This document shows, in pieces, positions 4,480 to 43,148 of a DNA stretch of 64,000 nucleotides (positions are counted from its first letter, which is position 1; every line of letters starts with the position of its first letter). Below the pieces are notes generated by a model. That model saw only the letters and a program-made list of their open reading frames with translations, searched no databases and was not told the DNA's origin. The position numbers and the translations under genes were made by a program. Origin of the DNA: Halomonas sp. 1513 (GTDB lineage Bacteria; Pseudomonadota; Gammaproteobacteria; Pseudomonadales; Halomonadaceae); the NCBI GenBank assembly GCA_001971685.1, contig CP019326.1, forward strand, positions 2,542,001 through 2,606,000. The letters are read 5' to 3'.

Positions 4480-5685
4480 TTATGGTTCAGAGGCCAGCAG
4501 CGCCTGGGTCTGCCAGGCGATCATGCGCGCCTCGTCGGTGGCCAGCACCCAGAGCCCAAGGTGGCTCTCGGCGCCGGCGATCGAGGTGGCATGGACTCGA
4601 TTGGCCGCGGCATCGAGGCGCGCGCCGAGCCAGCGGCACCCATCGATAATGGCAGCCCGAACCGGGTCGGCACGCTCGCCGATGCCCGCCGTGAACACCA
4701 GGTGATCGAGTCCACCAAGCGCCGCCGCCAGACTGCCGATTTCGCGCACCACGCGATACACGAACAGCTCGACGGCGAGCTGGGCGGCCGGCTCACTGCT
4801 GGCCAGCAGCTCGCGCATGTCGGCACTGATAGCCGAGACACCCAGCAGTCCGGCCTCGCGGTAGAGCAGCCGCTCGACCTCGCCGGCGCTCATGCCGCAC
4901 TGCTGGATCAGGTGCAGCACCAGGCCAGGGTCGAGGCTGCCGCTGCGAGTGCCCATCATCAGTCCATCCAGTGCGGTGAAGCCCATGCTCGAGGCCAGGC
5001 TGCGCCCGTCGGCAACGGCACACAGGCTGGCGCCACTGCCCAGGTGGGCGATGACCACACGCCCCGCGGGCCGTCCGTCCAGCTCCTCATTGAGTCGTCG
5101 GCTGACATAGTCGTAGCTGAGCCCGTGGAAGCCGTAGCGGCGCATGCCGGCATCGTGAAACCGCTGCGGCAGCGCAAAGCGCTGAGCCAGCGCCGGCTGC
5201 CCGGCGTGAAAGGCAGTGTCGAAGCAGGCGACTTGCACTAAGTCGGGACAGCGTTCGGCCAGCGCGCTGACCGGCGCCAGGCAGTGAGGTTGGTGTAACG
5301 GCGCCAGCGGGCTGAGCCCATCCAGCGCCGTCAGGACCCCGGCATCGAGGCGCGTCGCCTCACGGTAGTCCACCCCGCCGTGGACCACGCGATGCCCCAC
5401 CGCGGCAATACGCTGCCAGCCGACCTGCGCCTCCAGCCAGTCGAGCAGATAGCTCAGCGCCGCCGCCTGCTGGTCGTCAGCGTGGCCACCGCCCAGTGAC
5501 AGCGAGTGTTCCTCGGCGAGGCGGTGCGGCCCCGCCTCGAGCTGCCAGCGCGGGGCGGCGCCCAGCCCACTGATCTGTCCGCTCAGCACCACCGGCAGGG
5601 CATCGGGCGAGCCGTTCGCTCGCGCCTCGAACAGCGCGAACTTGAGGCTCGACGATCCGCTGTTGAGCACCAGCACCAGGCTCAT
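4480..5685 (-). CDS. ackA: acetate kinase
   Basis: Cytosolic ASKHA-fold kinase (401 aa, normal family length) interconverting acetyl-phosphate plus ADP and acetate plus ATP. Visible motifs are the N-terminal LNSGSSSLKF phosphate loop, the RVVHGG substrate region, FHGLSYDYVS, the catalytic HLGSGASL segment, and FTAGIGE near the C-terminus. Its ATG overlaps the stop codon of the MaoC-Pta gene by 4 bp (ATGA), so translation is probably coupled. Together the two genes form an acyl-CoA to acyl-phosphate to carboxylate plus ATP branch. Confidence 0.95.
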   Translation of the reverse strand: MSLVLVLNSGSSSLKFALFEARANGSPDALPVVLSGQISGLGAAPRWQLEAGPHRLAEEHSLSLGGGHADDQQAAALSYLLDWLEAQVGWQRIAAVGHRVVHGGVDYREATRLDAGVLTALDGLSPLAPLHQPHCLAPVSALAERCPDLVQVACFDTAFHAGQPALAQRFALPQRFHDAGMRRYGFHGLSYDYVSRRLNEELDGRPAGRVVIAHLGSGASLCAVADGRSLASSMGFTALDGLMMGTRSGSLDPGLVLHLIQQCGMSAGEVERLLYREAGLLGVSAISADMRELLASSEPAAQLAVELFVYRVVREIGSLAAALGGLDHLVFTAGIGERADPVRAAIIDGCRWLGARLDAAANRVHATSIAGAESHLGLWVLATDEARMIAWQTQALLASEP

Positions 5686-7100
5686 GACGCCTCCGGCTCA
5701 CGCCGATGCTGCGCTACCAGCAGCGCCAGCGCACAGGAAGCGAGCCGGGTGATGGCGTCGTCGGCGCGGCTGGTCAGCACGATGGGTACCTGGGCTCCCA
5801 TCACCAGGCCGGCACCGCTGGCATCGGCCAGGTGAGTCAGCTGCTTCATCAGCATATTGGCGGCTTCCAGGTCCGGCGCCACCAGGATGTCGGCGCGCCC
5901 GGCTACCGCCGAGTCGATGCCCTTGGTCCTGGCCGCGGCTTCGGAGATGGCGTTGTCGAAGGCCAGCGGCCCGTCGAGCAGGCCGCCGCTGATCTGACCG
6001 CGCTCGGCCATTTTGCACAGCGCGGCGGCGTCCAGGGTCGAGGCCAGTCGCGGGTTGATGGTCTCGATGGCCGAGAGCAGCGCCACCCGCGGCTGCTCGA
6101 TGCCGACCGCATGGGCCAGCTCGATGGCGTTCTGGACGATGTCGCGCTTGACCTCGAGTCCCGGGTCGATATTGATCGCCGCATCGGTGATGAACAGCGG
6201 TCGCGGATAGGTGGGCACGTCGAAGGCCATCACATGGCTCAAACGGCGTCCGGTACGCAGGCCAGCACTGCGCGACACCACCGCCTGCAGCAGTTCATCG
6301 GTGTGCAGTGCGCCCTTCATCAGCGCATTGGCACGCCCCTCGCGAACCAGGGCCACGGCCTGCTCGGCGGCGGCGTGGCTGTGTTGGGTGTTAATCAGTT
6401 CGAAGCCATCGATCACGACCCCGGCGGCTTCCGCGGCAGCGCGGATACGCGCCTCCGGCCCCACCAGCAGCGGCGTGATAAAGCCCTTGTCGGCGGCCTC
6501 CCAGGCGCCCTTGATCGAGACCTCGTCGACCGGGTGCACCACCGCCATGGTCAGCGCCTCGCTGCGCTCGGCGGCATTCAGCAGCTCATGCAGATGCCCA
6601 CGCTCGGCAAGGCGCAGCTGCGGCATCACGGTGCGCCGCCGACGCACCTTCTCGCGCGGCGCTACCACCTCGGCTTCGCCCTCGATGACGCTCTCGCCGT
6701 TCTGGTTGGCGCAGCGGCAGTCGAAGGTGATGCGCGATCGTCGCGCCTCCTTGTCGCGCACCTTGACGCTGACGGTGAGCACATCACCCAGGCGCACCGG
6801 CGCCAGGAAGCGCAGCGACTGCCCGACATACAGGGTGCCAGGCCCCGGCAGTTCGGTGCCCAGCACGGTGGAGATCAGCGCCCCGCCCCACATGCCGTGG
6901 GCGATCACCTCCTGGAAACGCGAACTCTTGGCGTAGTCATCATCGACGTGGGCAGGATTGATGTCGCCGGACATGATGGCGAACAGCTTGATGTCTTCGA
7001 GGGTCAGGCGTTTGTGGATCGAGGCACTGTCGCCGACCTGGATCTCGTCGAAGGTGCGATTCTCGATATCGTCATCGCGGGGGAGTGGCGCATCGCTCAT
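5682..7100 (-). CDS. bifunctional MaoC-like enoyl-CoA hydratase / phosphate acyl(acetyl)transferase
   Basis: Fusion protein of 472 aa. Residues about 10-150 form a MaoC hot-dog domain: GDINPAHVDDDYA holds the Asp/His catalytic pair and is followed by IAHGMWGGAL. Residues about 165-470 form a PTA_PTB domain (MKGALHTDELL, FITDAAINIDPGLEVKRDI, GGLLDGPLAFDNAIS, VPIVLTSRAD). The Pta half resembles the short, phosphobutyryltransferase-like form. Two starts are possible: ATG 7106 overlaps the fabI stop as ATGA, while ATG 7100 has AGGG 7 nt upstream and is used here. The fusion is known from other proteobacteria and probably handles short acyl-CoAs such as crotonyl- or 3-hydroxybutyryl-CoA; the substrate is inferred. 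Confidence 0.9.
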   Translation of the reverse strand: MSDAPLPRDDDIENRTFDEIQVGDSASIHKRLTLEDIKLFAIMSGDINPAHVDDDYAKSSRFQEVIAHGMWGGALISTVLGTELPGPGTLYVGQSLRFLAPVRLGDVLTVSVKVRDKEARRSRITFDCRCANQNGESVIEGEAEVVAPREKVRRRRTVMPQLRLAERGHLHELLNAAERSEALTMAVVHPVDEVSIKGAWEAADKGFITPLLVGPEARIRAAAEAAGVVIDGFELINTQHSHAAAEQAVALVREGRANALMKGALHTDELLQAVVSRSAGLRTGRRLSHVMAFDVPTYPRPLFITDAAINIDPGLEVKRDIVQNAIELAHAVGIEQPRVALLSAIETINPRLASTLDAAALCKMAERGQISGGLLDGPLAFDNAISEAAARTKGIDSAVAGRADILVAPDLEAANMLMKQLTHLADASGAGLVMGAQVPIVLTSRADDAITRLASCALALLVAQHRREPEAS

Positions 7101-35011: not shown

Positions 35012-35061
35012 TCCAGCCGCATGACACTACCCAACTGATACTTCACCATCACTGCTGCCCA

Positions 35062-35067
35062 TATAAT
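35062..35067 (+). promoter_or_regulatory. -10 element ahead of the cupredoxin-c-di-GMP cluster
   Basis: A perfect TATAAT 20 bp before the cupredoxin ATG. No good -35 hexamer lies 17 bp upstream (TACTTC), so an activator may be needed. The leader would be only about 15 nt. Confidence 0.45.
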
Positions 35068-35087
35068 AATCTGATCAGGCACATGCC

Positions 35088-35747
35088 ATGCGCTCTGCTT
35101 TGCTACCTCGGCGGTTAGCGGTGATAGCCTCGACGCTCCTGTTATCCAGCCCTGCCGCCGCCTCGCTTCTCACTGTCAGAGACGCCGCAAGTGGTGAGCT
35201 GCTATCGAACGCGGTGATCGAGGTCCACGTCAGCGGCGAGCCGGGCAGGCCCAGCGTCGACGACGATATCATCCAGCGCGATGCGACCTTCCATCCGCAT
35301 GTCTCGGCCGTGCCGGTGGACAGCCGTATTCGCTTCCCCAATCAGGACAATACACGCCATCACGTCTACTCCTTTTCTCCGGCCAAGACCTTCGATCTCA
35401 ACCTTTTCCTGCGCGATACCCCGCCGCCCATCAGTTTTGATCAGGCTGGCGTCGTGGTGCTCGGCTGCAACATCCATGATCACATGCAGGCCTTCATCGT
35501 GGTCAGCGAAGCAACGCACGTCGGTGTCACCGCGGAGGACGGCAGCTGGCAGGTACCCGACCTGGCCACTGGGGAGCACCGCGTGCGGGTCTGGCACCCG
35601 CGACTCGACGACAGCCACCAGCAGTGGCACGACGTCTCCCTCAACGGACAGCCTCAGCAGGAGGTCCTGCTGACCCTGACGGCCTCAGCCCCGCCGCCCT
35701 CTGAGCCGTCGGCGCTGCAGCAGCGTTTTCGTGATGCCACCCAGTGA
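35088..35747 (+). CDS. periplasmic cupredoxin-domain protein (methylamine-utilisation-like)
   Basis: 219 aa with a signal peptide (about residues 1-25, cleavage near AAA-SL). A plastocyanin-type copper site is visible: His91/His92 in NTRHHVYSF and the C-terminal loop CNIHDHM (Cys127, His130, His132, Met133), giving a type-1 copper ligand set. After residue 140 a carboxypeptidase-regulatory-like strand region follows (VGVTAEDGSWQVPDLATGEHRVRVWHP). Domain order matches proteins annotated as methylamine utilisation protein, but no amine dehydrogenase genes are nearby. It is the first gene of a run with a GGDEF-EAL protein 18 bp downstream. Confidence 0.85.
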   Translation: MRSALLPRRLAVIASTLLLSSPAAASLLTVRDAASGELLSNAVIEVHVSGEPGRPSVDDDIIQRDATFHPHVSAVPVDSRIRFPNQDNTRHHVYSFSPAKTFDLNLFLRDTPPPISFDQAGVVVLGCNIHDHMQAFIVVSEATHVGVTAEDGSWQVPDLATGEHRVRVWHPRLDDSHQQWHDVSLNGQPQQEVLLTLTASAPPPSEPSALQQRFRDATQ

Positions 35748-35765
35748 CGACCCCCGGATGCCGAT

Positions 35766-38063
35766 GTGAGTTTTCGTAGCCGCCTGCTGAGTGTGATGCT
35801 GGTCGTGGTGGTGCTTGCACTCACGGTGACCGGTGGCGCCTTCCTACGCGTGGTGTATCAGGATGCTCTGGCCAAGGGGGAACACGACCTGGAGGTGGGC
35901 GTCAACGTACTCCAGCAAATCCTCGACGAGCGCGGCCATCAACTGCGTAACAACGTGGCGATACTCGCCGACGACTTCGGTTTCAAGAGCGCGGTCGCCA
36001 CCCAGGATACCGATACGCTGCGTACGGTACTGGCCAACCACGGCGACCGTGCAGGGGCCGACATGGTACTGCTCAGCGACCTCGAGGGCAGCCTGCTGGC
36101 CAGCAGCCATCACCCTGCCGGAAGCACGCTGCCGTTCTTCGATCTGCTGGAGCAGGCCCAGCAACAGGGCGCCGGCGTCGATCTCATCGTCGAAGCGGGC
36201 CAGCCCTATGAGTTCGTGCTGCTGCCGGTGCGCGCGCCCAACCTGATCGGCTGGGTGGGCATGGGCTTCTTGATCGATGAGGCGTTGGTTAACGAGATTC
36301 ACGCCCTGACCCGCCTGGACATCAGCGTCATCGCGCAACCCAGCGGAGATAGCCCCTCTTATTTGGTTAGTTCTCGCCCCGACCTGGCCGACCAGGCCGA
36401 GCCGATAGACGCCCAGGCGATCATCGACGACACGGACTACCTGACCCGCGAGCTGGTCCTCAACGTAGCCGGCCCGCAGCAGACCCTCGCCCTGGCTCAG
36501 GTATCCCGCGCCAGCCTGCTGGCCGCCTATCGCGACTTGCAGTGGCAACTGCTGGCCATCGTCGGCTTGATCCTGCTGCTGACGACCGCTGCAGCGGCCT
36601 GGAGCGCCCGCAGCATGAGCCTGCCGCTGACCCGGCTCAGCGATGCTGCGCGGCGCATTGGCCTCGGCCAGCGACTCGAGACGATCGGCGTCTCACCGCG
36701 CGGCGAGATCGGCCTGCTGGCCGATACCTTGCTATCGATGCAGGCCGATATCGACGAACGCGAACGGACGCTGCTGCACCGCTCCCGCCACGACCCTCTG
36801 ACCGACCTGCCCAATCGCAGCAGCGCCCAGGAGTGCATAACGCAGCTGATCGAGCAGGGTCGGCCTTTCTCTCTGCTGCGTCTGGCCGTCGAAAGATTTC
36901 GCGATATCAACGACACCTTCGGCTATGCCCTCGGGGACAGGGTGTTGATCACCCTGGCCCAGCGGCTGGCACAGCTGCCCTCCCCGGGCTTCCAGGCGTT
37001 TCGGCTCGGCGACGACGAATTCCTGCTGCTGGTAGACAACCCGGCGCCGCCCGACGGCTGGCAGGAGCGGCTGCTGCAGGAGCTGAGCGAGCCCATCGAG
37101 CTGGACGCCTCACCGTTTCGCCCATCGCTGTGTGCGGGGGAGTCGCATAGCCCCACCCACGGCGAAGACCCGCATCTGCTGCTGCGGCGGGCCGATATCG
37201 CGCTGGCGTCCGCACGCCGCCAGCGCAGCGCCTGGCGCTGCTACCAGCCTGGGCAGGACGAACAGCACTTTCGCCAGCTGACCCTGATTCGCGACTTGCA
37301 AGCGGCGGCCAGGGACTCCCAGCTATGGATGGCCTATCAACCCAAGATCGAGGCCAGTAGCGGAAAGGTGAGCCAGTTCGAGGCCCTGATGCGCTGGCAG
37401 CATCCCAGCCTGGGATTCATTCCGCCAGACGAGTTCATTACCCTCGCCGAGCGCTCGGGTAACATTCGCCTGCTCAGCCGCTGGATGATCGACAGCGTGT
37501 GTCGCCAGCTCGCCGAGTGGCGGCGCGCCGGACAGATTCAGTCGGTGGCCATCAACCTCTCCGCCGAGGACGTCATCGATCCGCAGCTCGCCGAGCATCT
37601 GCTCAGCGTACTGGCTCACTACGCCCTCGACGTCGAGCAGTTGAGCCTGGAAGTGACCGAGAGCGCCGTGATGCAGGATCCCGCGCTGGCCAATCGCTGC
37701 CTGAGCGAGCTCAGGCAAGCGGGCCTGACGGTGGCGATCGATGACTTCGGCACCGGCTACTCGTCGCTGGCACAGCTCAAGCAGCTGCCCGTGGCCGCCT
37801 TGAAGATCGACAAGTCGTTCGTGATGTCGCTGGATACCCAACCCGACGACGTGGTCATCGTGCGTTCGACCATCGAGCTGGGGCATCGCCTGGGGCTGCG
37901 TGTCGTTGCCGAGGGAGTGGAAACCGCTGCCATCGCCGCCCTCCTTTGCGACTTCGGCTGCGACGAACTGCAAGGGTACCTGTTCGCCAAGCCGCTCCCG
38001 GGCCACGAGGTCACCGCCTGGCTCGACCACTATCACCCCGACGCGACATTCACCTCATCGTGA
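35766..38063 (+). CDS. GGDEF-EAL protein with extracytoplasmic sensor and HAMP
   Basis: 765 aa from a GTG start. Transmembrane helices at about residues 7-28 and 258-280 bracket a periplasmic Cache-like sensor domain of about 230 residues. A HAMP segment follows (residues 280-335), then GGDEF (HDPLTDLPNRSS; active loop RLGDDEFLLLV, GDDEF instead of GGDEF, probably reduced or inactive) and EAL. The EAL domain keeps EALMRW, NLSAED, EVTES, DDFGTGYSSL, KIDKSF and AEGVE, so phosphodiesterase activity is expected. It lies between the cupredoxin and DUF3034 genes, so its periplasmic sensor may respond to them. Confidence 0.9.
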   Translation: MSFRSRLLSVMLVVVVLALTVTGGAFLRVVYQDALAKGEHDLEVGVNVLQQILDERGHQLRNNVAILADDFGFKSAVATQDTDTLRTVLANHGDRAGADMVLLSDLEGSLLASSHHPAGSTLPFFDLLEQAQQQGAGVDLIVEAGQPYEFVLLPVRAPNLIGWVGMGFLIDEALVNEIHALTRLDISVIAQPSGDSPSYLVSSRPDLADQAEPIDAQAIIDDTDYLTRELVLNVAGPQQTLALAQVSRASLLAAYRDLQWQLLAIVGLILLLTTAAAAWSARSMSLPLTRLSDAARRIGLGQRLETIGVSPRGEIGLLADTLLSMQADIDERERTLLHRSRHDPLTDLPNRSSAQECITQLIEQGRPFSLLRLAVERFRDINDTFGYALGDRVLITLAQRLAQLPSPGFQAFRLGDDEFLLLVDNPAPPDGWQERLLQELSEPIELDASPFRPSLCAGESHSPTHGEDPHLLLRRADIALASARRQRSAWRCYQPGQDEQHFRQLTLIRDLQAAARDSQLWMAYQPKIEASSGKVSQFEALMRWQHPSLGFIPPDEFITLAERSGNIRLLSRWMIDSVCRQLAEWRRAGQIQSVAINLSAEDVIDPQLAEHLLSVLAHYALDVEQLSLEVTESAVMQDPALANRCLSELRQAGLTVAIDDFGTGYSSLAQLKQLPVAALKIDKSFVMSLDTQPDDVVIVRSTIELGHRLGLRVVAEGVETAAIAALLCDFGCDELQGYLFAKPLPGHEVTAWLDHYHPDATFTSS

Positions 38064-38076
38064 CCTGGAGGCCTTG

Positions 38077-38925
38077 ATGCGAACGCCCCCCATCCTCCGG
38101 CAGCTTCTGTGCTGCGCCCTGCTCGCGTCGCTGTCTTTCAGCGCAGCCGCCGGCAGCCGTCTGCTCGCCACCGGTGGCGTCGGTCAGATCGAAGGCGCCG
38201 CAGGCGGCGGCCTGTCGCCCTGGGCAGTACTCACAGGCACCGCCAGCAGCGGCGAGGTCAGCCTGACCGCCGTGGGCAGCCGCGCCTGGCTGAGTGACTA
38301 CCGGCTTAGCGTTGGAGGCATCGGCGTCAACGTGCATGACCGCCTGGAGCTGTCACTGGCGCGACAGCGGCTGGCGTTGACCACCCTGGGTGGCGAACTG
38401 GAACAGACCATCGCCGGCGGCAAGCTGCGCCTGTTTGGCGATGTCCTCTATCACCCCTGGGGTATCTGGAGCCTGGGGATTCAGCACAAGTGGCTGGAGG
38501 ATGGCGACCTCGCCCGCGCAGTGGGTGCCACGGACATCCGTGGCACCGATCTCTACCTGAGCGGCAGCAAGCTGTGGTTTGACGCCGTCGCCGGCCGCAA
38601 CCTGTTGACCAACCTCACGCTCAGGCACTCGGCTGCCAATCAGGGCGGGCTGCTTGGCTACGGCGGCGACCAGCACGATGGCGGCTCGCTGCTCGTCGAG
38701 GGCTCGCTGGGCCTGTTCATCACCCCTCGCTGGATCATCGGCACCGAGTACCGACAAAAACCCGACAATCTCTCATTCGCTACCGAGGACGACTGGCAGA
38801 GCCTGTATAGCGCGTACTTTGTCAACAAACAGCTATCCGTCACGGCCGCCTGGCTGGACCTCGGATCCATCGCGGGTCTCGATGGCCAGCGTGGCAGCTA
38901 TGTATCGCTCCAACTGTCATTCTAG
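38077..38925 (+). CDS. DUF3034 family outer-membrane-type protein
   Basis: 282 aa with a signal peptide (about residues 1-24). The sequence is rich in amphipathic beta strands with a C-terminal LQLSF ending, typical of outer-membrane barrels. LLATGGVGQIEGAAGGGLSPWAVLTG, HDRLELSLARQ and LGIQHKW match DUF3034 as I know it. GGAGG lies 5 nt before the ATG at 38077. It follows the GGDEF-EAL gene by 13 bp and precedes the globin gene by 9 bp. No function is established for the family. Confidence 0.75.
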   Translation: MRTPPILRQLLCCALLASLSFSAAAGSRLLATGGVGQIEGAAGGGLSPWAVLTGTASSGEVSLTAVGSRAWLSDYRLSVGGIGVNVHDRLELSLARQRLALTTLGGELEQTIAGGKLRLFGDVLYHPWGIWSLGIQHKWLEDGDLARAVGATDIRGTDLYLSGSKLWFDAVAGRNLLTNLTLRHSAANQGGLLGYGGDQHDGGSLLVEGSLGLFITPRWIIGTEYRQKPDNLSFATEDDWQSLYSAYFVNKQLSVTAAWLDLGSIAGLDGQRGSYVSLQLSF

Positions 38926-38934
38926 GGAAACGTC

Positions 38935-39378
38935 ATGACGATCCGTCGATTCTGCCGCGCGATGCTTCTGAGCACGCTATTGATCATCACAGGATGTAGC
39001 ACTAGCCAACCGTCATCTCCTCAAACGCTCTACGCAGATCTGGGCGCTGAGGCTGGTATCTCGGCGGTCGTCGAGAACCTGATGTATCGCATTGCCGACG
39101 ATCCGGCGATAGTAGGATTCTTCGCCAATACCAATATCGACCACTTCGTCGCCTCGCTGGAGCAGCAGCTATGTGACATAAGCGACGGTCCATGCACCTA
39201 TCAGGGCCCCCCGATGGATCGTGCGCACCAGCATATGGGTCTCGACGACAGCCACTTCAACCGGCTGGTGGAACACCTCGATGCCGCCATGATCGATGAA
39301 AATATCCCACTGCGAACCCGCAATCGGCTATATGCTCGGCTCGCTCCGCTGCACGGCGACATCATGCGTTTGCAATAG
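38935..39378 (+). CDS. lipoprotein truncated haemoglobin (group 1 type)
   Basis: 147 aa. A lipoprotein signal (LLIITGC, Cys21) places it in the envelope, which is unusual for truncated globins. The globin core runs from about residue 32 (LYADLGAEAGISAVVENLM) to the end, with the proximal His in DRAHQHMG (His98 by my alignment) and helix G/H segment SHFNRLVEHLDAAM. By alignment with typical group 1 globins the B10 position is Met50, not the usual Tyr, so the distal pocket may differ. A Cys80/Cys87 pair (LCDISDGPC) could form a disulfide in the periplasm. It is a member of the cupredoxin-c-di-GMP run. Confidence 0.85.
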   Translation: MTIRRFCRAMLLSTLLIITGCSTSQPSSPQTLYADLGAEAGISAVVENLMYRIADDPAIVGFFANTNIDHFVASLEQQLCDISDGPCTYQGPPMDRAHQHMGLDDSHFNRLVEHLDAAMIDENIPLRTRNRLYARLAPLHGDIMRLQ

Positions 39379-39456
39379 CTGCTTGGCTATCGCCGGCGCC
39401 ACGCATCGCTATACTCAGGGTTCAATGGCCCATGACGTACTACGCGAGCAACTTGC

Positions 39457-41511
39457 ATGCACCATTCGCCAGACACCCGTACCTATCGACCGCTGACCCA
39501 GCACCGCCTGATGGCGCTGCTGTTCGGCGCGCTGGGGGTGGGCGTCGCGTTGATCCTGGCGATCAGTTGGCAAGTCTCGCGCCAGGCGGGCCTGGGCAGC
39601 GCCCTGGCCTGGCTGGGCGCCGGTGCCGTGGTGCTGCTGGCGGTGTCACTGCTGTTTCTGCGCGAGCTTAGCCACCAGCGAGAGGCCCAGCAGCACATGG
39701 AGCGCGCCCTGCAGGAATCCCGCCAGCGCCTGCTCGCCCAGCAGCAGGCCTGGCACGAATTGCGCAACCTGCAGCACGAGGCCGGTGACTGTGACTTCTA
39801 CGCCAGCGTGCTGAGTTCGACCGCACGGCTGATGAACGTGCCGCGGGTCAGCATCTGGCTGCTCGGCGACGACACCATGACCTGCCAGGCCAGCCTCGAT
39901 GATGCCCAGGTCGGCGAACAGCTGCCCATCGAGCGCCTCGACGGCTACCTGGGGGCGCTCCGAGAGTCCCCCGGCCTGGCCAGCGTCGAGGCCCAGCACG
40001 ACCCCCGCCTGGCCTGCCTCAGCGACTATCTGGTCAAGCATGGCGTGGTCTCGATGCTCGACGCCGGCGTCTTCGTCGGCGGTGAGCTGCGCGGCATTCT
40101 ATGCTGCGAATCGCTGCTAACGCGGCGCTGGCACGCCGAGGAGGTCAGCTGTCTGATCGCGGTTTCGGGGTTGATCTCGCAGTTCGCCGAGTCGCTGCGC
40201 CGGCGTGCGGCGGAGCAGGACCTGCACCGCTACCTGCACTACGACGACGTCACCGGCCTGCCCACTCTGCGCGGTCTGGACGCGCCACTCGAGCGCCACC
40301 TCGAGGCCGGTCGCTTTCATCTCGGCGTGCTGCGGATCGGCGGGCTCAGCCAGATCAACGAAACCCTCGGCCAGCGCGGTGGCGACCAAGCGCTGAGCCT
40401 GATCGCCCAGCATCTGCAGCGCTATATGGACCAAACGCTATCGGGCATCGACCTGGCGCGACTGCCTTCCAACCGCCTGGTGCTGGTGATGCCGGATACC
40501 AGCCGTGATGTGGCGCATCAGCTGTTGGCGGAACTGCTGGAAACCCTCAACGCTCACCCTTGGTGGGTGGATGACCAGGCGTTCCAGTTGCAGTTCGCCC
40601 TCGGCATTGCCAGCTATCCGGACCACTCCGACAGCGTCGAACAGCTGCTGCAGCGTGCCGAGCTGGCCCTCAAGGAAGCGCGCCATGATACTCGCCACGG
40701 CGTGGCCTTCTACGCCAGCGAGCTGAGCGAGTGGCAGCAGCGACAGAACCTGCTCGAGCGCGAGCTGCGCGAGGCCATCCGCAGCCAGCAATTCTGCCTC
40801 TATCTGCAGCCACAGTTCGACCGCCGGGGAGCCCTGCGGGGCGCCGAGGTGCTGCTTCGTTGGCAGCACCCCGAGCGCGGGCTGATCGGCCCCGGAGACT
40901 TCATCCATGAGGCCGAGCGCAGTGGCCTGATTCGGCCCATTGGCAACTGGGTACTCGAGCAGGCCGGGCAACTGCTGGCCGGTCCGCTGGCCAACACCCA
41001 GCTCGGCCTGTCGGTCAACGTCTCGGTACAGCAGCTGCGCGACGAGGATTTCGTCCCGCGCATCGCCCGCCTGATGAACAAGCACGCCATCGCCCCGGGT
41101 CGCCTGACCCTCGAAGTCGTCGAGTCACTGCTGCTGGCGCCGGGTATCAGCCTGCAGCTCAAGGCGCTGCGCGACCTCGGCGTGGAACTGTCACTCGACG
41201 ACTTCGGCACCGGCTACTCATCGCTGCGCTATCTGCAGGACTTCAGCGTCGATGAAGTCAAGCTCGACAAGGTGTTCATCGACGTCCTGCAGCAGTGCGA
41301 CGATGCCCCACTGGCGCGTTCGATCATTGCCCTGGCCAAGACGCTGCAGCTCAAGCTGGTCGCCGAAGGCGTGGAGACAGCGTTCCAGCTCGAATACCTG
41401 AGCCGCCACGGCGTCGACCTCATTCAGGGCTACCACCTGGCGCGTCCCGAACCGGTCGAGGACTTCGTGACGCGCCTGCAGGCCATCCCCTCACTGGCCG
41501 ATCACGGCTGA
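39457..41511 (+). CDS. membrane GAF-GGDEF-EAL protein
   Basis: 684 aa. Two transmembrane helices (about residues 17-40 and 48-68) are followed by a coiled segment, a GAF domain (about residues 105-245), a degenerate GGDEF domain (YDDVTGLPTLRGL; the active loop is RLPSNRLVLVM, so no cyclase activity) and an EAL domain. The EAL signature reads EVLLRW (EVL instead of EAL), while NVSVQQL, EVVES, DDFGTGYSSL, KLDKVF and AEGVE are kept, so it may still hydrolyse c-di-GMP. It starts 78 bp after the globin gene on the same strand. Confidence 0.88.
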   Translation: MHHSPDTRTYRPLTQHRLMALLFGALGVGVALILAISWQVSRQAGLGSALAWLGAGAVVLLAVSLLFLRELSHQREAQQHMERALQESRQRLLAQQQAWHELRNLQHEAGDCDFYASVLSSTARLMNVPRVSIWLLGDDTMTCQASLDDAQVGEQLPIERLDGYLGALRESPGLASVEAQHDPRLACLSDYLVKHGVVSMLDAGVFVGGELRGILCCESLLTRRWHAEEVSCLIAVSGLISQFAESLRRRAAEQDLHRYLHYDDVTGLPTLRGLDAPLERHLEAGRFHLGVLRIGGLSQINETLGQRGGDQALSLIAQHLQRYMDQTLSGIDLARLPSNRLVLVMPDTSRDVAHQLLAELLETLNAHPWWVDDQAFQLQFALGIASYPDHSDSVEQLLQRAELALKEARHDTRHGVAFYASELSEWQQRQNLLERELREAIRSQQFCLYLQPQFDRRGALRGAEVLLRWQHPERGLIGPGDFIHEAERSGLIRPIGNWVLEQAGQLLAGPLANTQLGLSVNVSVQQLRDEDFVPRIARLMNKHAIAPGRLTLEVVESLLLAPGISLQLKALRDLGVELSLDDFGTGYSSLRYLQDFSVDEVKLDKVFIDVLQQCDDAPLARSIIALAKTLQLKLVAEGVETAFQLEYLSRHGVDLIQGYHLARPEPVEDFVTRLQAIPSLADHG

Positions 41512-41610: not shown

Positions 41611-41754
41611 CTACTTCGCGTTGCCTTGATCCGATTTGCCGGACTTGCCGTGGCGCTTGTGATCGTGAATCACGAAGCCCACCCAGCCGGCCATGAAAGC
41701 GACCATCAAGCCAACGGTCACCAGTCCAAAGATTACGGCGTCATCCCAGTACAT
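41611..41754 (-). CDS. ccoM: CcoM-like small subunit of cbb3-type cytochrome oxidase
   Basis: 47 codons: start MYWDDAVIFG, a single transmembrane helix containing LVTVGLMVAFMAGW (about residues 9-29), and a basic C-terminal tail (HDHKRHGKSGK). GGGAG is 8 nt before the ATG. The N-out/short-tail layout and TVGLMVAF core resemble, from memory, the 37-residue CcoM subunit of Pseudomonas stutzeri cbb3 oxidase, with a longer C-terminal tail. A FNR box at -41.5 and a -10 element at the right spacing, plus its own strong terminator, show it is a real monocistronic gene. The ccoNOQP genes are not in this window. Confidence 0.75.
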   Translation of the reverse strand: MYWDDAVIFGLVTVGLMVAFMAGWVGFVIHDHKRHGKSGKSDQGNAK

Positions 41755-42443: not shown

Positions 42444-42992
42444 TCAACCATCGCGGCGCAGCTGGGCCACCGGCATCTCCAGGCGCTGCTGCTTGTGCAG
42501 CATGGTCAACAGCACGATGGCGCGCTCCTCGCCCTTGTGCGACTCGAACACCGCCTTGAGATCGCGGAAGGGGCCGTCGGTGATCTCGACACTCTCACCG
42601 GCACGGAAGTAGACGTTGACCTGCGGTGCCGCATCGCCGCCCCGCTGCGCCTGATCGCGCAGCAGCTGCACCAGGGCATCATCCACCGCCAGCGGCTCGT
42701 GCCCGAAGCTGACCAGCTTTAGCACGCCGCGCGTGGAGCGAATTGGCCGCCAGTTGCTGGCCAGCCGGTCGAGGCGGATGAACAGATAGTAGGGAAACAG
42801 CGGCTCGGCGACCCACACCAGCTTGTCGCGACGTTTTTTCTGCACCTCGAGGACCGGATGGAAGACCTCGTAGCCCTGATTGTCGAGATGCTCGGCGGCG
42901 CGAAACGATTCACCGCCCTTGCACTGGATGATGTACCAGCGCGGGATGGCATCGGCGGATACGCCACTGGGGTCAGCGTTGAACTCGTGCAT
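42444..42992 (-). CDS. rfaH: transcription antitermination protein RfaH (NusG family)
   Basis: 182 aa. The NGN domain holds RWYIIQCKGGESFRAAEHLDNQGYEVFHP and PLFPYYLFIRLD, and the C-terminal KOW domain is GESVEITDGPFRDLKAVFESHKGEERAIVLL. The specialised length and the VQKKRRDKLVWVAEPLFPYYLFI segment match RfaH rather than housekeeping NusG. It recruits to ops sites in long operons of lipopolysaccharide or capsule genes, which are not in this window. The start at 42992 has AGGAG 4 nt upstream. Confidence 0.9.
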   Translation of the reverse strand: MHEFNADPSGVSADAIPRWYIIQCKGGESFRAAEHLDNQGYEVFHPVLEVQKKRRDKLVWVAEPLFPYYLFIRLDRLASNWRPIRSTRGVLKLVSFGHEPLAVDDALVQLLRDQAQRGGDAAPQVNVYFRAGESVEITDGPFRDLKAVFESHKGEERAIVLLTMLHKQQRLEMPVAQLRRDG

Positions 42993-43148
42993 GGGGCTCC
43001 TGACGGTAACGAACCGAATGTGGCTGGCGTCTGCTCTGCGGCTCTGCAACAATCGCCGCAAGTGTTGCGGCTACCACAGCGATAGTTTATCACTCCTCAC
43101 CGCTGGCTTCCGCCCTGCACCGCGCCCCATGGATCGGAGAAATGACTT

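Follow-up and report, generated by a model that had tools for sequence, protein, structure and literature searches.

The periplasmic polyamine-binding protein NspS informs the membrane cyclic diguanylate (c-di-GMP) enzyme MbaA, and in the YfiBNR system an outer-membrane lipoprotein, a periplasmic protein and an inner-membrane c-di-GMP enzyme are encoded in one operon. HmsC–HmsD and ArtI–STM1987 are presented as c-di-GMP enzymes with periplasmic partners in sections of a review from 2022 on stimuli of c-di-GMP proteins (PMC8846402), in the text of which the word 'copper' occurs 0 times. In Pseudomonas aeruginosa the CHASE4 domain of PA14_37690 binds copper and PA14_53310 is controlled by haem, according to the parts of PMC13277305 that concern these proteins. 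Here we describe a locus of Halomonas sp. 1513 that lies in a window of 64,000 nucleotides (CP019326.1, positions 2,542,001–2,606,000); all coordinates given below are positions within this window. Five genes follow one another on the plus strand with intergenic gaps of 18, 13, 9 and 78 bases (Table 1). In our judgement there is an even chance that the first four, coding for a cupredoxin, a membrane receptor, a DUF3034 protein and a truncated globin, make up a trans-envelope sensor in which the cupredoxin would be the periplasmic partner of a dCache_3 receptor with a c-di-GMP-degrading EAL domain.

Results

Conservation of the locus

A sequence-only reading had placed five same-strand genes here, separated by 9–78 bp, and both their coordinates and their domain content were borne out by open reading frames (ORFs), Pfam, profile matches and a structure model. 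Two sets of relatives were used to follow the genes: a phylum sample of 398 genomes across the phylum Pseudomonadota with 14 control genomes, and a named sample in which 80 loci were kept of 314 relatives, mostly Halomonadaceae and Marinobacter. The ORFs of the fetched stretches were searched with profiles built on the genes of the window. DUF3034 (PF11231) was found in 39 of the 398 phylum genomes and in 0 of the 14 controls, and the phylum sample provided 39 DUF3034 loci from 38 genomes, the window's own excluded. All four genes stood together at 29 of these 39 loci, and the globin gene followed DUF3034 at 38 of them. The 29 complete loci showed the co-linear order cupredoxin–receptor–DUF3034–globin (22 loci, a second receptor being present at two), a divergent layout with cupredoxin–receptor pointing one way and DUF3034–globin the other (6 loci), or the order DUF3034–globin–cupredoxin–receptor (1 locus). 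The set was complete at 77 of the 80 named loci, the receptor being below threshold at 3. Its carriers belong to the alpha-, beta- and gammaproteobacteria; the named examples outside the last class are plasmid-borne. DUF3034 was present on 13 plasmid records, and gene order was examined on two: a plasmid of Novosphingobium sp. EMRT-2 (Alphaproteobacteria) carries the four genes in the divergent layout, and one of Caballeronia sp. SBC2 (Betaproteobacteria) has the order DUF3034–globin–cupredoxin–receptor.

These conservation counts confirmed that the five-gene observation was not due to chance. Gene order beyond Halomonadaceae had been set beforehand as the test of the earlier reading; it was conserved for four genes and not for the fifth, GAF-GGDEF-EAL gene, which was present at 2 of 80 named DUF3034 loci and absent from all 39 phylum loci. 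Among 101 genomes of the family, a close copy of the fifth gene was detected in 5 genomes of the same genus (the window's own included) and was linked to the globin gene in 3; no DUF3034, globin or cupredoxin gene lay within ~1.5 kb of the other 2 close copies and of 7 more distant ones. We rejected this gene as a member because it shares few loci with the set and also stands apart from DUF3034 and globin. The upstream murein transglycosylase (SLT) gene, for which the profile was built on the copy in the window, adjoined the set at 28 of 80 named and 3 of 39 phylum loci and was therefore treated as neighbourhood.

Two side observations concern extra gene copies (L and G numbers designate loci and genomes). 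A second receptor gene lies upstream of the cupredoxin gene at two loci of sample family f3 (L041:4765-7200 and L042:10051-12447), and at L040 (G078, ~5190-6320) a second DUF3034–globin copy with in-frame stops is apparently decaying.

Co-occurrence in the 398 genomes

The profile searches for co-occurrence scored the best few candidates per genome, and misses are possible. Cut-offs of 160 bits for the cupredoxin, 136 bits for the globin and 139 bits for the sensor were chosen after the score gaps had been viewed; at E ≤ 0.001 the raw tallies were 92, 141 and 392 of 398, raised by further cupredoxins and globins and by HAMP regions that also match. With these cut-offs the cupredoxin was found in 50 genomes, the receptor sensor in 49 and both in 48, the sensor counted in G064 and G281 belonging to a cyclase. 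DUF3034 was present in 39 genomes and the Cys-pair globin clade in 41, both together in 39. The cupredoxin was detected in 38 of the 39 DUF3034 genomes, and cupredoxin with sensor in 37, so that the DUF3034–globin distribution is close to nested inside that of cupredoxin and sensor. The Fisher p values for co-occurrence (3e-39 to 2e-58) are overstated, since related genomes are not independent.

Cupredoxin and receptor

Pfam gave only a sub-threshold CarboxypepD_reg match for the first gene product. Its profile matched the NirK cupredoxin domain (E 5e-6) and amicyanin (E 0.011) in the PDB, and the structure model adopts a cupredoxin fold with a predicted local distance difference test score (pLDDT) of 89.3. 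The predicted type-1 copper ligands are His91 (35358-35360), Cys127 (35466-35468), His130 (35475-35477) and Met133 (35484-35486), and this ligand set was kept in 112 of 112 cupredoxins and in 26 of 26 further ones. Judged by ligand set and modelled fold, the protein would be a blue-copper-type (type-1) cupredoxin, and copper binding is predicted. The records of relatives call it cupredoxin, plastocyanin or 'methylamine utilization protein'.

The receptor consists, according to Pfam, of a periplasmic dCache_3 sensor, HAMP, a degenerate GGDEF and an intact EAL domain. The claim that both GGDEF sites of the five genes are altered agreed with the motifs in the window, where gene 2 has GDDEF and gene 5 has PSNRL, and the claim that both EAL domains look usable was in line with the nine EAL positions that we checked, which we take to be the metal- and substrate-binding ones and which were intact in both genes. 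We then counted 109 receptors with a sensor match at E < 1e-30 and a GGDEF-EAL profile match; cyclase and kinase forms are not in this count because both matches were required. All nine EAL positions were intact in 109 of 109, which makes c-di-GMP hydrolysis the likely output here. With catalytic residues kept to this extent and a spread well beyond Halomonadaceae, the earlier proposal of a conserved envelope signalling set with EAL output was upheld. The canonical [GSA]G[DE]EF was present in 27 of the 109, and a changed GGDEF is not general in the family. In the sensor, positions D70, G72, F73, A76, T84 and R95 were kept in 106–108 of the 109. The sensor was assigned to dCache_3 in 25 of 26 members and contains no invariant His, Cys or Met besides Met1, none exceeding 17 of 26; therefore the visible metal-binding capacity resides in the cupredoxin and the globin, not in the receptor.

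A different output was observed beside some cupredoxins, in few cases, at three loci. The gene after the cupredoxin at L195:2080-3846 and L196:1727-3616 encodes a dCache_3-HAMP sensor with a nucleotide cyclase domain and no EAL, and at L207:3608-5416 a dCache_3 receptor beside the cupredoxin has a HisKA-HATPase output instead of EAL. At L207 the genes for barrel, cupredoxin and kinase follow in this order on one strand, and an ORF that by eye resembles a response regulator lies upstream of the barrel gene. All three receptors retain four of the six sensor positions (D, F, T and R), and the three cupredoxins keep H-C-H-M. The cupredoxin thus stays constant while the output changes, as expected of an input partner, and it seems to accompany the sensor irrespective of the output. 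A gene for a 4HB methyl-accepting chemotaxis protein lies close to the cupredoxin at L160:3353-5092, L162:6128-7900 and L068:828-2591, hinting at a chemotaxis link.

Predicted outer-membrane barrels

The DUF3034 protein matched PF11231 with 305.9 bits against a gathering cut-off of 25. Its AlphaFold2 model contains 12 strands (pLDDT 78.5, predicted template modelling score 0.76), and a Gly-rich stretch is conserved at the N terminus. The nearest solved folds to the model were FapF (PDB 5o65), KdgM and a COG4313 channel (4rl8), and a PDB sequence search with the DUF3034 alignment gave nothing below E 0.055. A 12-stranded outer-membrane channel is predicted from this model. The likeness to FapF is one of fold only, and we claim no relation in function.

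The cupredoxin search yielded 23 strong loci that lie apart from DUF3034, all of which were fetched, and L207 was added through a barrel search (n=24). A receptor adjoined the cupredoxin at 16 of these, a porin-like protein of ~411 amino acids at 14 (13 of 23 without L207) and both at 9; a receptor only was seen at 7 loci, 5 of them in genomes with DUF3034 elsewhere. The porin-like proteins (L159, L163, L164, L165, L166, L168, L169, L170, L175, L177, L178, L193, L194 and L207) are one family, since 10 members compared all-versus-all gave E ≤ 2e-42 for every pair and the rest were recognised by profile. Pfam contained no model above cut-off for the first aligned member, and sub-threshold porin-type models appeared in part of 11 aligned; PDB sequences gave nothing up to E 1. 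The family was found in 0 of 119 DUF3034 stretches. In the 12 cupredoxin genomes without DUF3034 it stood beside the cupredoxin in 8, and for the remaining 4 the loci of G281 and G233 are at contig ends and G158 and G064 show no member in the examined stretches. Of the 274 genomes of a second, gammaproteobacterial sample, 3 contained the family at E ≤ 1e-20: G007, already counted, G618, where it occurs with a cupredoxin and a kinase, and G710 (L206), where no cupredoxin was found in the 7.6 kb examined next to a contig end.

Globin

The best solved relatives of the globin are of group 1, HbN-type structures of Mycobacterium tuberculosis (E 2e-24). With a Bac_globin domain and the proximal His, gene 4 appears to encode a group-1-like truncated globin. 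Residues C80, C87 and H98 (the proximal-His position) were kept in 118 of 118 globins, and the Cys80/Cys87 pair likely forms a disulphide in the periplasm. The window protein has the lipobox LIITGC with Ser at +2, and its export as a lipoprotein is predicted. By a rough rule, a lipobox was present in 25 of 38 phylum-sample globins, and the named sample gave 75 of 80 with a lipobox, 4 with only a hydrophobic N terminus and 1 with neither; export seems to be general, the lipid anchor not. The NO dioxygenase pocket of HbN has a distal Tyr (B10) and Gln (E11). By alignment the E11 position is L75 of the window protein, Leu or Phe in 118 of 118 globins, and the B10 position is M50, with Tyr in 0 of 31. 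An HbN-type nitric oxide (NO) dioxygenase is disfavoured by this pocket without Tyr at B10 and Gln at E11. Cys-pair-clade globins with a lipobox were also noted at L173:5058-5654 and L174:5249-5695, with no DUF3034 detected in the stretch or the genome.

Upstream region and neighbouring features

Sigma-70-like promoter matches upstream of the cupredoxin gene were no more numerous than expected by chance (Table 1). In 113 stretches upstream of cupredoxin genes some 7-mers were over-represented, reaching as many as 30 of 113 where mononucleotide shuffles gave 2.4, an excess that we put down to an assumed shared ancestry; several assigned starts, among them those of L071 and L072, lie inside the signal peptide, which shifts the corresponding stretches downstream. 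Beyond the five genes, the product of a 47-amino-acid ORF on the minus strand (41611-41754) is, by eye, a membrane protein with one helix and a tail rich in His and Lys; the ORF is followed on that strand by a strong hairpin with a T run. A NusG-domain protein (42444-43061, minus strand; PF02357, E 1.2e-20) is RfaH-like by eye.

Table 1. Genes and upstream feature of the locus, in window positions
Feature	Position	Strand	Evidence or remark
Weak sigma-70-like promoter match, TTCACC-17-AATAAT	35042..35070	+	Upstream of cupredoxin; 1 found vs 0.7 expected
Exported cupredoxin (predicted)	35088..35747	+	PDB profile matches, fold model, copper-ligand residues
Inner-membrane receptor, dCache_3-HAMP-GGDEF-EAL	35766..38063 (GTG start)	+	Pfam
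DUF3034 protein, predicted outer-membrane barrel	38077..38925	+	PF11231 E 3.1e-91; AlphaFold2
Exported truncated globin (predicted), lipobox	38935..39378	+	Bac_globin PF01152 E 2.3e-14
GAF-GGDEF-EAL protein, neighbour outside module	39457..41511	+	Pfam; rarely at other DUF3034 loci

Discussion

If the four genes form a trans-envelope sensor, the DUF3034 outer-membrane channel would let a small molecule in and the exported globin would bind a gas. The preferred candidate would be NO, because apolar residues occupy the HbN Tyr and Gln positions of the pocket here; redox state or copper as the signal would fit nearly as well. The earlier reading had proposed copper, O2 or NO as the possible signal. 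Globin and cupredoxin may exchange electrons or ligand, and the channel and globin together would condition what arrives at the periplasmic cupredoxin, or the way in which it receives electrons. In its loaded or oxidised form the cupredoxin would then dock on the dCache_3 domain, where its copper state would be read, and the dCache_3 domain so bound would change EAL activity. In Caulobacter CC3396 a degenerate GGDEF binds guanosine triphosphate (GTP) and tunes the EAL, and the degenerate GGDEF of the receptor could likewise tune its EAL by GTP binding. A wider proposal, which we put forward tentatively and with some doubt, is a new class of cupredoxin-coupled receptors in which a blue-copper protein would serve as redox-reading ligand of dCache_3 and in which both the outputs (EAL, cyclase, kinase) and the outer-membrane channels would be interchangeable, giving a relay from outer to inner membrane. 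As part of that same tentative proposal, the interchangeable channel would be either DUF3034 with the exported globin or the ~411-amino-acid porin-like protein.

A number of observations weigh against the sensor and its extension. DUF3034 occurs without the sensor in two genomes (G019 and G078) and the globin clade without DUF3034 in G154 and G328. The counted sensor gene is away from the cupredoxin in G015, G375, G158 and G142, and its motif is divergent in G015 and G375; weaker forms of the motif occur in the barrel-type EAL receptors of L178, L193 and L194, and likewise in L199 and L200, which are unlinked. Among the 23 cupredoxin loci apart from DUF3034, 5 have the barrel and no adjoining receptor, and 3 (L171, L176 and L197, the last at a contig start) have neither. 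Five genomes (G126, G213, G216, G340 and G348) carry DUF3034 together with the ~411-amino-acid family at a second cupredoxin locus, and the two families are therefore not strict alternatives. Not every globin has a lipobox: by the rough rule, 13 of 38 in the phylum sample show only a hydrophobic N terminus. In 8 of 31 globins, among them that of the window, a Tyr follows one position after B10, which makes the apolar-pocket argument soft. Finally, no known regulator site was enriched in the 113 upstream stretches with the consensus patterns used; CpxR-, Fur- and sigma-54-like patterns gave one match each, no clear excess.

The four genes could instead be two separate modules sharing the same habitats, a DUF3034–globin pair for uptake or detoxification at the outer membrane and a cupredoxin–receptor pair acting as an independent copper or redox sensor. 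Such a division would suit the 11 of 48 cupredoxin and sensor genomes without DUF3034, the genomes in which cupredoxin, receptor or both are elsewhere (G126, G142, G213, G225, G246, G261 and G389) and G078, with DUF3034–globin alone. However, 37 of the 39 DUF3034 genomes also carry cupredoxin and sensor, three arrangements bring the four genes together, and the other porin-like protein stands beside the cupredoxin(–receptor) in 8 of the 12 genomes without DUF3034, and we consider two modules unlikely. The 39 DUF3034 genomes also bear on a reading centred on copper supply or copper sensing instead of redox or gas, in which the barrel would admit copper, the cupredoxin would carry it, the loaded cupredoxin or passed-on copper would set the receptor and the globin would be a side activity. 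It overlaps in parts with the trans-envelope sensor, and the two are not exclusive; yet copper alone leaves unexplained the globin present in all 39, no His, Cys or Met that could bind copper is invariant in the sensor, and no CueR-like site was found upstream with the pattern tried, so that we give it rather little credence.

Signalling in the opposite direction, as in LapD, would have the GGDEF-EAL part bind c-di-GMP and pass its level to the periplasm to set the cupredoxin, globin or channel. The receptor shares with LapD the layout of periplasmic domain, HAMP, degenerate GGDEF and EAL, and the LapD model is among its NCBIfam matches, far below cut-off (124.7 vs 1020 bits). The EAL of LapD is degenerate and non-catalytic, whereas the receptor family, with its nine positions intact throughout, does not have the degenerate EAL of a LapD-type protein; moreover, the histidine-kinase and cyclase outputs at three loci would read outside-in. 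Inside-out control thus seems improbable to us.

The trans-envelope sensor predicts that cupredoxin and dCache_3 bind each other. Since the set is spread over three proteobacterial classes, the reading, if true, would assign functions to DUF3034, the 'methylamine utilization protein' cupredoxins, the Cys-pair exported globin clade and the unannotated porin-like family. No paper on the four-gene set was found in the open-licence PubMed Central literature searched, a scope that leaves subscription papers mostly outside. DUF3034 occurs once in PMC4255298. Other candidates from that search were set aside: PMC12548924 mentions DUF3034 once, in a legend otherwise on DUF3037, which has no bearing here, the relevant sections of PMC3770913 treat globins and GGDEF/EAL counts separately, and in the expression tables of PMC8055020 the two terms name different genes.

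The set would belong to the partner-controlled membrane receptors, and a cupredoxin partner would be new for c-di-GMP sensing: periplasmic partners of c-di-GMP enzymes are known, and none that we found is a protein of the copper electron-transfer type. Unlike amicyanin, plastocyanin and the C-terminal domain of NirK, the window cupredoxin has an extra CarboxypepD_reg-like C-terminal part (a sub-threshold match), and a receptor gene adjoins its gene. The YfiBNR proteins are unrelated to those of the window, with a peptidoglycan-binding lipoprotein and a diguanylate cyclase output. STM1987–ArtI and HmsD–HmsC resemble the set in that a separate periplasmic protein informs a membrane c-di-GMP enzyme, but in the sections of PMC8846402 describing them the partner is an amino-acid-binding or disulphide protein, not a cupredoxin, and no barrel or globin is involved. 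The polyamine-binding NspS is not a cupredoxin either, and NspS–MbaA is not known to include a barrel or globin. The nearest precedent is provided by the CHASE4-GGDEF/EAL proteins of P. aeruginosa, PA2072/IsmP, PA14_37690 and PA14_53310, which are likewise inner-membrane c-di-GMP proteins with a periplasmic Cache-like domain tied to copper, iron or haem. In these, as far as the portions of PMC13277305 devoted to them go, CHASE4 itself binds the metal or haem and nothing is said of a partner that is a cupredoxin, globin or barrel, whereas the window-type receptor is mainly dCache_3 and comes with partner genes.

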